A stretch of DNA of 45,408 bases from Thermodesulfovibrionales bacterium. GTDB lineage: Bacteria; Nitrospirota; Thermodesulfovibrionia; Thermodesulfovibrionales; UBA9159. Below the pieces are notes generated by a model that did no database searches, was not told the origin of the DNA, and saw nothing but the letters and a program-made list of their open reading frames with translations. Below are positions 28,424 through 34,877 of the stretch, piece by piece; the first letter of the stretch is position 1, and every line of letters begins with the position of its first letter. Both the position numbers and the translations under genes were made by a program. The DNA lies in contig DASRZP010000093.1 in the NCBI GenBank assembly GCA_035686305.1, positions 1-45,408 on the forward strand. Reading direction: 5' to 3'.

Positions 28424-30163
28424 TCAGCGGGACACAATCTTGCTTACCGGACTACTCCCCGGGAATGGCGCAAAGTAGTGGGAGTGTTGCCCCTTTCCCC
28501 CTGCGATGACGATCTGCAAATATTCAGGGGTGAGGGTGATCGGAACAAGGGTATCAGGGGTGACTACGTTAAATTTTTCTCTAAAGGCTGCCTGATTAGG
28601 GCACCCCTTTGCCCAGGAAGAAAAGGGAATGCGGGCCTTTTCCCAGATGGCCTTCCTGATCTGGTCTTTGGTCCAGCCAGCCTTTGCATAGATCTCCGCA
28701 TGCTCAGGACCCAGCCCTATGATGTGAGATTGTTCCATCTGGCTTGTCCAGCACGGGCCGCCAATGCTCAGAAGTGGAGAGACCGCATGGCTGAACCAGT
28801 TTGAAAGCTCCTCAGGGGTTGAACTCCACAAATCCACCACATTTGTGGGGGGCCAGATGCCCATCACGGTTACCACACTGTCATCCTTCTTAAAGCCCTT
28901 GTCAACATGGTACGGACGCCAACCCTTGGGAAGAGCGTCCTCATTCTCCCCAAATATCCAGGCAACAAAATCCGCGGGTGAGCCGAGAGTGGTCTTCTTC
29001 GGCGACGGAGGTTTTGAGCCGCCCACAACGGCTGCAATCAAATCAATGGCATAACCGATGGACGCATTGGCATGGTGCATTCTGCTGGCAGCCCCCTGAC
29101 TGTAGGCGAGGCCGATCTCTTTCACAATCGGTCCGTTCACGATCACCAGTGCCCCGATGGAGCCTGTGGATGTCGCTGAGCCACGCCAGTTTGCCTCAGG
29201 TGAAATGAGCGCCTCCATGGCCGCGATGAGCACAGGCATATATTCAGGCTTGCATCCGGCCATTACTGCATGGGCCGCTACCAACTCAACGGTAAGGGAG
29301 CCCATTCTCGGTGGAACCTGACCCAGAACCTGATCAGGTCTACGGCTGGTTCCCTTAAGCATCTCTGACACTTTCTCCGGGGTAGGCGCCATGATAGGCA
29401 GACCAAGGGACCACCCTCTTTCAAAAAACAGAGTATTGATGTCCTCATGCATACCTTTGAACATAAGTGTCTCAGCCGGATATGTAAGTTTCTTGGGCGG
29501 CATTTCTGCCACGGGTTTCCACTTTATTGCGGCATCAAGGATAGCCGGAAAAACATCTTTGGCCTTTTGCGTGATCTCCTCGATCGGAATTCCCCCCATC
29601 GGATGGGGCACAACGACAAAGCTCATATCAGCCGCGCCTTGACTCATTGCGGTATCCTTGGACAGACCGACAAACTCAGATGTGGCGATGGAAACAGTGG
29701 GAATGCCCATCCTTTCCAGATTCAGCTGGTCAACTACCAGCCACGAGGTGCAGGAGCCTCAATCGGCCTGGCCGGCAATTACAAGATCGGGTCTAAATGC
29801 AGCTATGCGCTGTGCAAGCTGCCTGCTCTTTTCCGGATTCTGGCTGATGATCTTAACTTCCGGGGCCTCTTGCCAGGCCTTAATAATCTTGATGTTCTTC
29901 ACATTTTCTATGAGGAGAGCCGCGACTTGGTTCAGGAAATTATCCCCGTTCTGTTTTCCATTCCATTGGAGCACCACCGTCTTTCCTTCAAGGCTGACCG
30001 GATGAGGATTGACCTTCATCGGTTCAATGTTAACGACACCCTCAGGGTTGATGAGCTTCACTTCATCGCCTCCCTCCCGGGATGATGTGATGGCAGGCAA
30101 GAACAAGAGAGCAACTGAGAAAAAGAGTATCCCAAAGCCTATGAGGTTCCTTCTTTTCATCAT
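28424..30163 (-). CDS. Exported UGSC-family selenoprotein (in-frame UGA = Sec135)
   Basis: Read with one in-frame TGA (29761-29759) as selenocysteine, the two frames 30163-29762 and 29758-28424 join into one 579-residue protein. Sequence around it is GQAD-U-GSCTSWLVVDQLNLER, matching the family motif [C/U]GSCTS, where many relatives have Cys. Both sides of the TGA fit the family: SLEGKTVVLQWNGKQNGDNFL before and MGIPTVSIATSEF after. A SECIS-like hairpin lies 17 bases past the UGA. The N-terminus MMKRRNLIGFGILFFSVALLFL is a signal peptide or anchor, so the redox site is probably outside the inner membrane. The C-terminal ~370 residues (for example GWSLGLPIMAPTPEKVSEML) are a second domain of unknown role. 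AGGAGGG precedes the ATG. The family reaction is unknown to me; a thiol/selenol redox role is inferred. Confidence 0.85.
29725..29741 (-). promoter_or_regulatory. Bacterial SECIS-like hairpin
   Basis: GCTGGT-AGTTG-ACCAGC: 6 perfect pairs, extendable by two G-U pairs (29723-29743), with a 5-base loop having G at position 2. The loop lies 23 bases after the UGA. Small apical loop, G in the first two loop bases and this spacing all fit the bacterial SECIS consensus read by SelB. Confidence 0.75.
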
Positions 30164-30698: not shown

Positions 30699-30866
30699 TT
30701 ACTTAAATGATATCAAATTTCCGGCTGTAGCGAAGTGGCACTCGGAGACTTGCAAAATCCACAATTCCACAGCTCTCACCTGACCTTTTATTCCCGTTGA
30801 AACGCCTTTTCCTCCCACCTCAAAGCAGACGCTATTGTGCAGGCCGCTGGTACCGACGATGTTCAT
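30699..30866 (-). pseudogene. Possible carbamoyltransferase N-terminal remnant after the NRPS
   Basis: A 55-codon frame begins MNIVGTSGLHNSVCF directly behind a very good ribosome site (AGGAGGG, 4 bases) and overlaps the last codons of the NRPS by 35 bases, as a translationally coupled next gene would. The first ~15 residues resemble the N-terminus of NodU/CmcH-type carbamoyltransferases found in biosynthetic clusters; the rest matches nothing I recognise. The likely reading is a gene cut off after its first codons by deletion. The similarity is short, so it may be a chance frame. Confidence 0.3.
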
Positions 30867-33800
30867 TTTCCCTCCTGCCATCACGGTCTTCAAGCAATGT
30901 GTTCACTTCGTCTTCTGAGAGTTCAGCCACCTTCAGCAAAAGTTTTGCCCGTTTTTCCAATTGTTCGGGTTTGCCCGTGCTGCACAGTGCCCCAGCCAGA
31001 CCTTCCACCGTTGGCCACTCAAACATGTAGCGCAGCGGGAAGTCTTTGTCAAAGGCGAGTCTCATACGGGATATGACCCGAGTCGCCTGCAGGGAATTCC
31101 CACCCAGCTCGAAAAAGTTATCATGGACCCCTACGTGTCTGAGTTTGAGGACCTCGCTCCATATTCCTGCAAGTATTTTCTCGATGGGAGTACGGGGAAG
31201 GACATGTGCAGTCTCAATATCGGGCCGCCCTGAGTCAGGCGGCGGTAGTGCCTTGCGGTCTATCTTTCCGTTTGGCGTCAGAGGCAGAGCATCGAGCAGC
31301 ATGAAGGAGGATGGTATCATGAAGGCGGGCAATTTTTCTGTCAGAGATTGTACAAGGGACTTCCTTAAGGCAGTGGTCATTTGCTCCTTCAGTGGGTTGT
31401 TGGCATAGGATTCCAGAGATTTCGGGCGTGAAGTCTCCTGCGGGAATGAAACAGGCGGGACGCGTCCAATCGTGGTATCCGCCGGATCGCGATACCGGAA
31501 GAGAGCATCAAAATATGCCGGCCCGCCGGCGTCCGACCATGTAATGTCCACGGCATAAGACAGATCATCACCAAGCTTCCAGAAGGCTTCAGGATGCACG
31601 GCCTCTGCCAGCATCTGCTCAACCATTTCTCTCAGTTCGCGGGCGGTACGCAGTGCTTTGTGCTCAACAAGATCGACGGCAGCAAAGGTTTCCGGAAAGG
31701 TCCGGGCGTTCGGTACACATGTCACACGCACTGCCTTTGGCATATTTTCCCGCAAATACCGGGACAAGACAGTGAGCGTCAAATTATTATTTTTCCAGTC
31801 GAGGCATCGCTGCTCTGTCGGCAGAGGCTCTTTGCCATCAATATGAAGGATACTGTCATAACGGAACCGTATTAATTCATTTTGGTGGAGGCCGCGTTTC
31901 AGCAGAGCGTCTACATGGCTGATCCTCGGAAAATAAGAGCGCAAAGAGTGAAAAAACCGAGGGTCAATGAGCAACTCTTTTTCGTGAAGTATGTCTCTGT
32001 TGACACGCTGATACAGTTCGTCGGCAGATACATTGTCCTGCGCACCCGACAAGGTGACGGAAACATGAAACGCTTCGAGGAGCGCCAGATTGCGTACGTC
32101 TCCTATAAAAATAAACCCGCCGGGCTCAACAACCTCAATCGTGCCACGGATAACTGTAACGAGATACTCTACACTGGGAAAATACTGTATGACACCATTG
32201 ATGATTACTGCATCGAAACGTTGTTTGCCTACGACCCTCAGATTGTCGGCGCTGCCATGGAACAGCCTGACACGGGAACGATGATCGCCGAGGAGGTCCA
32301 GATGACGCTGTACGTAATTGAGCGCAGGCTGCGAGAAATCCATGCCCCAGTAAAGGGAGCAAAGAGGCGCCACGCGGAACAGGATGCGGCCCAGGCCGCA
32401 TCCGATTTCCAGTACACGGGAGGGCTTCAGTGAAATGATTCGCTCTGCAGCACCATTGACCCATTCCCGTGTCTCAACCTCTTCAACGGGTTTTCCGGTG
32501 TAACTGCTGTTGACGCCGGCAGTGTTGGTAGCGGGATCTTTGACGTCAGGGGAATCGAGAAAGGTGCCATCATAGATTGTTTGCCATTGTTCGACCCGTT
32601 CACGTTGCATTTCCGGTGTGTGCTTCTTAATCTGCTCAAAGCCCGGGCCGGCAACGAGGTACGCTACCAATCGCTTGTCACCGGGGTTATCTTCCCGGAT
32701 AATTACGACTGCCTCACGAACTGCCGGATGTTGCAAAAGAGTTGCTTCGATCTCCCCCAGCTCAATTCGAAATCCACGAAGTTTCACCTGATGGTCGATA
32801 CGGCCCAAATACTCTATGTCGCCATCGGGCATCCAACGGCCTAAATCGCCTGTTTTGTATAGTCGGCTTCCGGGTTCGTCACTAAAGGGGTTTGGAATGA
32901 ACTTCTCCGCAGTAAGCTCAGGGCGGTTCAGATAGCCACGGGACAATCCGGCGCCGCCTATATAGAGCTCGCCGGGTGTCCCTGCAGGCGCCGGCTGTTG
33001 ATGGCGATCGAGTATGTAAACCTGGAGGTCGGGAAGGGGAAGGCCGATGAAGCTGCCTTTCTTATTTACATCGGCTACTGTCAGGGGGCGATAGGTAGCA
33101 TGAACTGTGGTTTCGGTGATTCCGTACATGTTGACAAGCCGGGGATGTTGATCCCCATGGCCTTGAAACCATGGCCTCAAGCCTTGAAGTTCAAGGGCCT
33201 CGCCCCCGAGTATGATGAAGCGCAAGGAAAGGTCATTGCCCTCTCTGCCCGCGGAAAGTTCATCTGAGCGCATCAGTTGGTAGAAGGCGGAAGGAGTCTG
33301 ATTGAGAACGGTTACACGCCCTTTGCAGAGCAACTCACGGAACTCTTCAGGCGAACGGCTTATGAGATAGGGGACTATTACAAGAGTCCCGCCGTACAGA
33401 AGCGCACCAAATATCTCCCAGACAGAAAAATCAAAGGCATAAGAGTGGAATAATGTCCACACATCATGCTCGTTAAAGCGAAAGAGGTATTCGGTTGCAG
33501 TAAACAAGCGAGCTATGTTACCATGGCTTACCATAACCCCTTTGGGTGTACCTGTGGAGCCTGAGGTATACATTACGTACGCAAGATTTCCGGATGTTAC
33601 ACCGGCAGCAGGATTCTTCGCGATCTCTTTCGATGTGGTCTCCCGGAGAATGTCCAGACACAGCATATGCGCATTACAAACGGGAAGTGTACGAAGCAGG
33701 CGCTCCTGTAACAGCAGCACGGGTACTTGTGAATCTCCGATCATAAAGCTGAGACGTTCTTTGGGATAGGCGGGGTCCAGAGGCACATATGCTCCGCCTG

Positions 33801-34155
33801 CCTTAAGGATGCCAAGGATGCCGATGATCATCTCCAGGGAACGCTCCACATAGATGCCTACGAGCACCTCGGGGCCGATTCCCTGCTTTATCAGGTAATG
33901 GGCCAGCTGATTCGCCCTGCGGTTCAGCTCCCGGTACGTAAGCTTCTGTTCCTCAAAGGCCACTGCAACAGCATCCGGGCTCCTTTCCACCTGCTCCTCA
34001 AAGAGCTCATGAATGCATTTGTCGGCTCGGTGCTCTCTACCGGTATTGCTCCACATAGGGTTATTACAGGGAGAGGGCCCAGAGTCATCACTGTGAGACT
34101 GGGCAGAACATGTCATGGATCCGAACTTCTCATTACTCAGCCCGTTTTTACGCAT
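30832..34155 (-). CDS. Single-module NRPS: adenylation domain interrupted by a methyltransferase, plus carrier domain (A-MT-T)
   Basis: A 1107-residue protein. The adenylation core (about 40-480) has YTSGSTGTPKGVM (A3), NMYGITETTVHATY (A5), YKTGDLGRW (A7) and GRIDHQVKLRGFRIELGEIE (A8). A methyltransferase of ~400 residues (about 500-905, SAM motif VLEIGCGLG near 582) is inserted between A8 and A9. A9 (LPAFMIPSSF) and A10 (NGKIDRKAL) follow, then a carrier domain with phosphopantetheine Ser1021 in GGNSLQ. There is no condensation or thioesterase domain. Specificity residues read from the pocket, D-F-W-N-(I)-G-M-V-H-K, match the published threonine code. Product: probably an (N-)alkylated Thr held on the carrier, but acceptor and product are unknown. 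It overlaps the CmoA-like gene by 19 bases. Confidence 0.9.
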   Translation of the reverse strand: MRKNGLSNEKFGSMTCSAQSHSDDSGPSPCNNPMWSNTGREHRADKCIHELFEEQVERSPDAVAVAFEEQKLTYRELNRRANQLAHYLIKQGIGPEVLVGIYVERSLEMIIGILGILKAGGAYVPLDPAYPKERLSFMIGDSQVPVLLLQERLLRTLPVCNAHMLCLDILRETTSKEIAKNPAAGVTSGNLAYVMYTSGSTGTPKGVMVSHGNIARLFTATEYLFRFNEHDVWTLFHSYAFDFSVWEIFGALLYGGTLVIVPYLISRSPEEFRELLCKGRVTVLNQTPSAFYQLMRSDELSAGREGNDLSLRFIILGGEALELQGLRPWFQGHGDQHPRLVNMYGITETTVHATYRPLTVADVNKKGSFIGLPLPDLQVYILDRHQQPAPAGTPGELYIGGAGLSRGYLNRPELTAEKFIPNPFSDEPGSRLYKTGDLGRWMPDGDIEYLGRIDHQVKLRGFRIELGEIEATLLQHPAVREAVVIIREDNPGDKRLVAYLVAGPGFEQIKKHTPEMQRERVEQWQTIYDGTFLDSPDVKDPATNTAGVNSSYTGKPVEEVETREWVNGAAERIISLKPSRVLEIGCGLGRILFRVAPLCSLYWGMDFSQPALNYVQRHLDLLGDHRSRVRLFHGSADNLRVVGKQRFDAVIINGVIQYFPSVEYLVTVIRGTIEVVEPGGFIFIGDVRNLALLEAFHVSVTLSGAQDNVSADELYQRVNRDILHEKELLIDPRFFHSLRSYFPRISHVDALLKRGLHQNELIRFRYDSILHIDGKEPLPTEQRCLDWKNNNLTLTVLSRYLRENMPKAVRVTCVPNARTFPETFAAVDLVEHKALRTARELREMVEQMLAEAVHPEAFWKLGDDLSYAVDITWSDAGGPAYFDALFRYRDPADTTIGRVPPVSFPQETSRPKSLESYANNPLKEQMTTALRKSLVQSLTEKLPAFMIPSSFMLLDALPLTPNGKIDRKALPPPDSGRPDIETAHVLPRTPIEKILAGIWSEVLKLRHVGVHDNFFELGGNSLQATRVISRMRLAFDKDFPLRYMFEWPTVEGLAGALCSTGKPEQLEKRAKLLLKVAELSEDEVNTLLEDRDGRRENEHRRYQRPAQ

Positions 34156-34877
34156 AACACACCAATAAAATTAAACCACTGGAAAAAAGGCTCTGATACT
34201 GCAAATCCGTTGCGGTTGAGCAATGCCAGGTTCTGCTGGATGCTGTACGGTATGAGCACGTCTTTCAGAGCGCCTTCCTTGCGGATGATCTCCTGTTCGG
34301 AATAGCCGTTTCTCCGCTTATAATCGTGGTACGAATCAATAAACAAATCGTTCAGGATTTCTTCCTCAAGAACGATCTTTTCAGTCAATAGCAGGGCGCC
34401 GCCAGCGACCAGGCCCTTGTAAATCCATTGTATGACCTTCTCTCTTTGCGGCGGAGGGATGAACTGCAGTGTCCAGCACAGAGTAATGACACTGGCTTTT
34501 TCGAGGGAAAGAGTTGTGAGGTCCCCGCTCAAATCGCCGTAACGCAATTCTATCCGGTTGCTCAGACCACTGTCCCTGACCTTGCGTTCGGCTTTTTTAA
34601 TCAAGGGAAGAGAACTGTCATAACCAATAAAGCGCGCTGCTCCGTCAAACTCCCTGCAAAGGTTGATAATCGTTGTGGCAGTAGAGCAGCCGAGATCGTA
34701 AACATATGTCTCCGGCTTCCAGAACCTCTTGGCGAGTTTGACGACAATGCGTTGCTGCTCCTCATAAAAGGGGATGCTCCGTTGCAGCATGTCGTCGAAT
34801 ACCTCGGCGACTTCTTCGTCGAATTCAAATTTTCGGGATGCTGAGCCGGATGATTGAAAAATAGTATCTCTCTTCAC
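34137..34877 (-). CDS. CmoA-like SAM-binding protein
   Basis: A 246-residue class I methyltransferase-fold protein, colinear with E. coli CmoA (carboxy-SAM synthase, ~247 residues): RDTIF start, FDEEVAEVFDDMLQRSIPFY, SAM motif VYDLGCSTATT, WTLQFIPPPQREKVIQWIYKGL and SYHDYKRRNGYSEQEI. CmoA converts SAM plus prephenate to carboxy-SAM for tRNA cmo5U modification. By my recalled E. coli sequence, the Arg (R199) that holds the carboxylate aligns with Glu201 here (IIRKEGAL). No cmoB is next to it; instead it overlaps an NRPS carrying a methyltransferase domain. It may therefore be a CmoA paralogue working in the NRPS pathway. GTG start with AGAGG 7 bases upstream. Confidence 0.8.
   Translation of the reverse strand: MKRDTIFQSSGSASRKFEFDEEVAEVFDDMLQRSIPFYEEQQRIVVKLAKRFWKPETYVYDLGCSTATTIINLCREFDGAARFIGYDSSLPLIKKAERKVRDSGLSNRIELRYGDLSGDLTTLSLEKASVITLCWTLQFIPPPQREKVIQWIYKGLVAGGALLLTEKIVLEEEILNDLFIDSYHDYKRRNGYSEQEIIRKEGALKDVLIPYSIQQNLALLNRNGFAVSEPFFQWFNFIGVLCVKTG

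Follow-up and report, generated by a model that had tools for sequence, protein, structure and literature searches.

Introduction

Only three kinds of use have been described for carboxy-SAM (Cx-SAM): on tRNA, in a few RiPP-type products and on phage DNA. The CmoA/CmoB pair serves the cmo5U modification of the tRNA wobble position. In E. coli CmoA, the carboxylate of Cx-SAM is held by Arg199, which was described as the key feature of the family (PMC3663124). In the transferase CmoB, Gly197 is conserved in 816 of 818 proteins, and a bulkier side chain at this site would interfere with Cx-SAM (PMC4482062). CmoA paralogues with new partners are represented by TglE/F and MccS (PMC10491745) and by the phage CmoA/CmoX pair (PMC12783734). 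In the synthesis of 3-thiaglutamate (TglE/TglF) and of microcin C in Bacillus amyloliquefaciens (MccS), a CmoA homologue was recruited to natural-product formation; the tgl system carboxymethylates an amino acid held on a ribosomal peptide as the carrier, using the CmoB-like TglF. In Synechococcus phage S-B43, CmoA works with a recruited methyltransferase that is not a CmoB, namely CmoX of the C5-MTase family, which acts on the cytosine C5 of DNA to give 5-carboxymethylcytosine. A different line of comparison is provided by interrupted adenylation (A) domains such as the A-MT-A of TioS (PDB 5wmm), where a methyltransferase (MT) domain inserted after motif A8 performs N-methylation.

Here we analyse a stretch of 45,408 nucleotides from a Thermodesulfovibrionales bacterium (hereafter the window), in which the gene for a CmoA homologue lies directly upstream of a gene for a nonribosomal peptide synthetase (NRPS) with an embedded MT, both on the minus strand. 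This pair shares with CmoA/CmoB the synthase family, Cx-SAM as the presumed donor and a Gly at the position of CmoB Gly197, but it lacks CmoB, the putative transferase being the MT of the NRPS; moreover, its synthase has Arg199 replaced and a basic residue at position 203, and its gene is accessory, being absent from most relatives. As in the tgl system, the amino acid to be carboxymethylated would be held on a carrier, although here the carrier is the thiolation (T) domain of an NRPS and the transferase an interrupted-A MT. With the phage pair the window shares a recruited transferase and a synthase combining Glu199 with a basic residue 203, whereas its MT is unlike CmoX in family and presumed acceptor. 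We suggest, at slightly better than an even chance, that the two genes work together as a small biosynthetic unit, in which Cx-SAM is produced so that the embedded MT can carboxymethylate an aminoacyl-S-carrier.

Organisation of the locus

The CmoA-family protein, a putative Cx-SAM synthase of 246 aa, is encoded at positions 34137–34877 (minus strand) from a GTG start preceded by its own Shine-Dalgarno sequence (AAAGAGG). The free-standing NRPS of 1107 aa, with the domain order A-MT-T, occupies positions 30832–34155 of the same strand. A CmoA homologue beside an NRPS with an embedded MT had been reported in the preliminary description, and this identification is confirmed by the TIGR00740 match, the domain matches and the gene order. 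The 19-base overlap reported there is less certain. It exists only if the NRPS starts at ATG 34155, where no Shine-Dalgarno site can be seen; with the following in-frame ATG, at 34116 and behind GAGAAG, the gap to the upstream gene would be 20 nt. Whichever start is used, the two genes are tightly coupled. Promoter and terminator scans gave signals no more numerous than in shuffled sequences.

The adenylation core (aa 52–409; 32929–34002, minus strand) matches Pfam AMP-binding with 319 bits and has the A3, A5, A7 and A8 motifs intact. The MT, of the N-methyltransferase type, is inserted after A8 and occupies, together with the following A-domain linker, about aa 526–935 (31351–32580, minus strand; Methyltransf_12, 50.8 bits). 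C-terminal to it stand A10 (LTPNGKIDRKAL) and then the T domain (aa 995–1057; 30985–31173, minus strand; PP-binding, 51.2 bits) with the phosphopantetheine serine in GGNS. Thus, the MT lies between A8 and A10 of an intact A domain followed by a carrier, which is the arrangement of an interrupted-A module; neither a C nor a TE domain was found in the 1107 aa. The embedded MT resembles TioS (5wmm, AMA4) both in sequence (E 3.7e-43) and in fold (E 1.6e-26), the latter judged on a structure model built from five sequences (pLDDT 79.8). It therefore shares insertion point, class and fold with TioS-type modules, from which the window differs by its cognate cmoA, by four replacements of near-invariant MT residues (Gly654, Arg590, Val548 and Thr562) and by the missing C domain. 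The pocket code of the A domain, D-F-W-S-I-L-M-V-H-K, appears to be threonine-like as read by motif anchoring rather than by a trained predictor.

Further along the same strand (28424–30163), the window encodes a UGSC-family selenoprotein with an in-frame TGA at 29759–29761, which is followed by GSC and by an open frame of about 444 more codons.

Genome context of the pair

The source genome (3.23 Mb in 147 contigs, 97.66% complete) encodes a single CmoA, the one in the window. No CmoB (PF08003) was found in this genome, while the E. coli control was positive, and neither a NanM-like transferase nor a cytosine-C5 MTase of the CmoX type was detected there. The preliminary description had asked whether a separate cmoA and cmoB exist elsewhere in the genome, and a sole cmoA accompanied by cmoB and cmo5U tRNA would have spoken against its proposal; the sole cmoA is found here with no cmoB beside or apart from it. 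Within the order, CmoA occurs in 2 of 176 genomes, and the six other family members searched all lack it. Because 174 of the 176 genomes do without it, the gene is accessory, and it is therefore unlikely to have a housekeeping tRNA role. The source genome encodes a prephenate dehydratase, which implies that prephenate, the co-substrate of CmoA, is made and available.

Besides the MT of the window, no embedded NRPS MT was detected in the source genome, where the other matches cover the A10/T region only. This genome (G000) has other NRPS genes, among them stand-alone A-T proteins, and beside one of them lies a gene for an Sfp-type phosphopantetheinyl transferase. NRPS genes, stand-alone A-T ones included, are broken at the ends of contigs C33, C34, C38 and C105, and C33 and C34 end in the identical start sequence of an A domain, which is probably an assembly repeat.

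Could the two genes be neighbours by chance, an accessory cmoA having moved beside an NRPS fragment so that the pair belongs to no shared pathway, or to a decaying one? The lack of C and TE domains, the presence of other NRPS pieces on contig ends and the fact that the locus is conserved in no relative searched would fit such a history. However, the two reading frames are intact and no catalytic motif is missing, the genes lie on the same strand with a 19-base overlap or a 20-nt gap, and cmoA has its own Shine-Dalgarno site. Free-standing modules are, moreover, normal in this genome, given its other stand-alone A-T proteins. Since the sole CmoA of a 3.23-Mb genome abuts the sole NRPS with a detected embedded MT, adjacency by chance is improbable.

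Comparative genomics does not add to this argument. In the neighbourhoods inspected among 395 genomes of the phylum and 176 of the order, no second CmoA-NRPS pair was found; the same holds for the neighbourhoods inspected in plasmids, phages and viral contigs and for a peptide-pattern search of 84,980 genomes, which reaches close relatives only. The survey of CmoA-NRPS neighbourhoods proposed in the preliminary description thus turned out negative, and the pairing has no comparative support from it. CmoAs of Bacillota plasmids were considered as possible NRPS-linked cases and rejected, their neighbours being DNA cytosine MTases.

The putative carboxy-SAM synthase

The CmoA homologue scores 229.8 bits against the TIGR00740 equivalog (cut-off 193.3) and falls below the stricter cut-off of PRK15451 (173.1 vs 285). 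Its identity to E. coli CmoA is about 37% in a structure-based alignment. The best PDB matches, in sequence and in fold alike, are the CmoA structures of E. coli and Haemophilus influenzae (4gek/4iwn/1im8), the fold comparison being made with an AF2 model (pLDDT 87.8). Equivalents of the SAM-site residues Tyr39, Asp62, Gly64, Ser66, Asp89, Asp117 and Glu164 are all retained, while Asn90 is replaced by Ser and Asn132 by Cys, at positions that are both variable across the panel.

Class I MT-fold proteins of another kind, the azetidine-2-carboxylate synthases AzeJ and VioH, also occur in NRPS pathways (PMC11794875), and an enzyme of this type could feed the A domain from upstream. Their motifs are FY, PFNxxGN and RxxYYxxC (PMC11794875); PFNxxGN and RxxYYxxC are absent from the 246-aa protein, for which this identity was rejected. 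With CmoA as by far the closest match and an A-domain code that seems not to be proline-like, such a role has a negligible probability.

A more serious question is posed by Arg199. In the window protein, the aligned residue is Glu201 (codon 34275–34277, minus strand), a replacement that the preliminary description does not mention, and the surroundings are also altered (KEGALKDV instead of KREALENV). We initially read this as evidence against Cx-SAM. That reading was dropped after comparison of 114 CmoA-family proteins (loci L009–L175), a panel in which many members are similar viral proteins. Two combinations only occur in it: Arg199 with Glu203 (102 proteins), and a residue other than Arg at 199 with Lys or Arg at 203 (12 proteins). 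Hence every one of the 12 proteins lacking Arg199, but not one of the 102 that have it, is basic at 203. The window protein belongs to the 12, having Lys205 (codon 34263–34265, minus strand) at E. coli position 203. Another of the 12 is the S-B43 phage CmoA (L168), with Glu199 and Arg203, whose Cx-SAM synthesis was proven biochemically and reported to exceed that of E. coli CmoA (PMC12783734). As the charge has moved to 203 just as in this proven synthase, the loss of Arg199 is no argument against Cx-SAM synthesis. In the AF2 model, Glu201 lies within the helix 194–204 and Lys205 just after it, so that the two are one helix turn apart.

In the phylogenetic tree, the 12 proteins without Arg199 are found in two places, 11 of them together and the window protein alone, as a sister of L017 (support 99/97) inside the Arg199 clade. 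The window CmoA thus gained the 199/203 swap independently of the group that includes the S-B43 protein, which makes two origins of the 203-basic state in total. An independent swap fits selection for a carboxylate-binding base better than decay. Judging from these sequence comparisons, Glu201 probably makes the protein less typical of CmoA but not less able to work as a Cx-SAM synthase.

It may still be supposed that the homologue has lost Cx-SAM synthesis and acts as a separate methyltransferase, or as some other SAM-dependent enzyme, on the same carrier-bound amino acid. The replacement of a residue central to Cx-SAM binding (PMC3663124) and the changes around it would agree with this, although the same 199/203 combination in a proven synthase (PMC12783734), the score above the equivalog cut-off and the retained SAM-site residues do not. 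In addition, the cofactor of known CmoA lies under a closed lid (PMC3663124), which is ill-suited to a bulky carrier-bound acceptor. We consider this reading unlikely, and regard the window protein as quite probably a Cx-SAM synthase. The comparison also has a practical side: the structural criterion of 2013 (Arg199) would dismiss CmoA homologues that lack this residue, whereas a charge at either 199 or 203 offers an annotation rule by which they are not to be discarded as non-synthases.

The cofactor site of the embedded methyltransferase

The reference set for the MT (METHYLTRANSFERASE) consisted of 21 other NRPS MT domains, taken from Cyanobacteriota, Pseudomonadota, Bacillota, Actinomycetota and the phylum of the window itself. 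The MT departs from them at sites where they vary hardly or not at all. Gly654, in NGVIQYF (codon 32194–32196, minus strand), stands for a Ser present in 21/21 of the comparators; Arg590, directly after the GxGxG of MT motif I (32386–32388, minus strand), for Leu or Met in 21/21; Val548, in GVNSSYTG (32512–32514, minus strand), for Trp in 20/21; and Thr562 for Met in 21/21. Thus, the usual cofactor residues of NRPS N-MTs (the Trp of GWNSSY, the Leu/Met after GxGxG and the Ser of NSV) are not kept, while NxVxQYF retains its Gln and Tyr.

When the MT family was aligned with the CmoB profile (hhalign, probability 94.8), the alignment was ungapped through the motif and Gly654 paired with CmoB Gly197. 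These replacements suggest a cofactor region that is enlarged (Gly654) and newly basic (Arg590). Contact of a basic residue with the carboxymethyl group is described for Arg350 of CmoX (PMC12783734), and a small N-MT coupled to CmoA was engineered for Cx-SAM through added space or a Lys/Arg, the Lys/Arg replacements raising its selectivity for this donor (PMC7496830). The triad of CmoB has no obvious counterparts in the window MT: at the Tyr200 position it has Gln, like all the NRPS MTs of the comparison. With regard to the CmoB residues Lys91/Arg315, Arg590 is a candidate contact for the carboxymethyl group by its position only. In other class I MTs, GxGxG is often followed by an Arg, which can contact the alpha-carboxylate of SAM itself, and Arg590 may do the same. 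The atypical residues could also stem from drift, or from an altered acceptor instead of an altered donor.

An alternative is an ordinary SAM-using N-methyltransferase accompanied by a CmoA homologue that makes Cx-SAM for an unlinked acceptor or for a later tailoring enzyme. The fold, most of the motifs and the conserved Gln/Tyr of NxVxQYF are canonical for NRPS N-MTs, as this alternative would have it. Yet the genome lacks the known types of Cx-SAM transferase, the NRPS next to cmoA is the only one found with an embedded MT, and the cofactor site deviates in the way that a larger, acidic donor would lead one to expect. We therefore rate the alternative as rather unlikely, though slightly more plausible than the loss of Cx-SAM synthesis discussed above.

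Proposed pathway

In the carboxymethylation pathway that we propose, the CmoA homologue would convert SAM and prephenate into Cx-SAM, and the A domain would adenylate an amino acid, perhaps threonine-like according to its code, and load it onto its own carrier domain. The embedded MT would then move the carboxymethyl of Cx-SAM, instead of a methyl, onto the tethered amino acid. The alpha-nitrogen is the likeliest acceptor, since the MT is one of the N-methylating class. This would yield an N-carboxymethyl-aminoacyl-S-carrier, which, as the NRPS contains neither a C nor a TE domain, would be passed in trans to another NRPS. Stated in full, that is, as a natural NRPS carboxymethylation module in which a charge-relocated, dedicated Cx-SAM synthase feeds an interrupted-A MT that carboxymethylates the carrier-bound amino acid, the proposal has a little less than an even chance in our judgement.

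Supply of Cx-SAM to the MT, with carboxymethylation as the outcome, had been put forward in the preliminary description. This idea is strengthened by the absence of CmoB and of other known Cx-SAM users, by the charge swap resembling that of S-B43 and by the altered cofactor region of the MT; its support is partial, given that no second CmoA-NRPS pair was found in the neighbourhoods inspected and that the overlap is uncertain. In the literature searched, we found no precedent for Cx-SAM with NRPSs or for N-carboxymethyl with NRPSs. If the proposal is true, an NRPS MT natively taking Cx-SAM would represent a new donor for assembly-line chemistry, and the N-carboxymethyl amino acid a type of building block unreported for NRPSs in that literature. 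The module could then guide the engineering of peptides whose side arms are acidic, metal-binding or open to further ligation.

Other CmoA loci

Several other CmoA loci deserve mention in their own right. Most CmoAs of the 203-basic type adjoin cytosine-C5 MTases in phages and plasmids. Two loci of the same phylum, L017 (9656–11457) and L018 (5011–10259), have CmoA homologues of the Arg199 type inside glycan clusters with a NeuB-type synthase (Pfam, L017), a polysaccharide protein bearing the PFTS motif and a putative sugar O-methyltransferase resembling NanM. No CmoB was recognised within these stretches, and their composition suggests that a surface sugar is carboxymethylated, which would be a further use of Cx-SAM not yet on record.

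On plasmid pT136b of Rhizobium sp. T136 (L078, 11959–13481), cmoA is followed, about 11 bases on, by a gene of the isoprenylcysteine carboxylmethyltransferase family, whose product is possibly a further Cx-SAM partner; close homologues of this CmoA are found on other Rhizobium and Ensifer plasmids. On a plasmid of Burkholderia stagnalis (L173, 11066–16926), a CmoA homologue of the 203-basic type lies between a DUF692 protein and a large methyltransferase/radical SAM gene, near isocyanide synthases, and this locus looks like a natural-product cluster using Cx-SAM.
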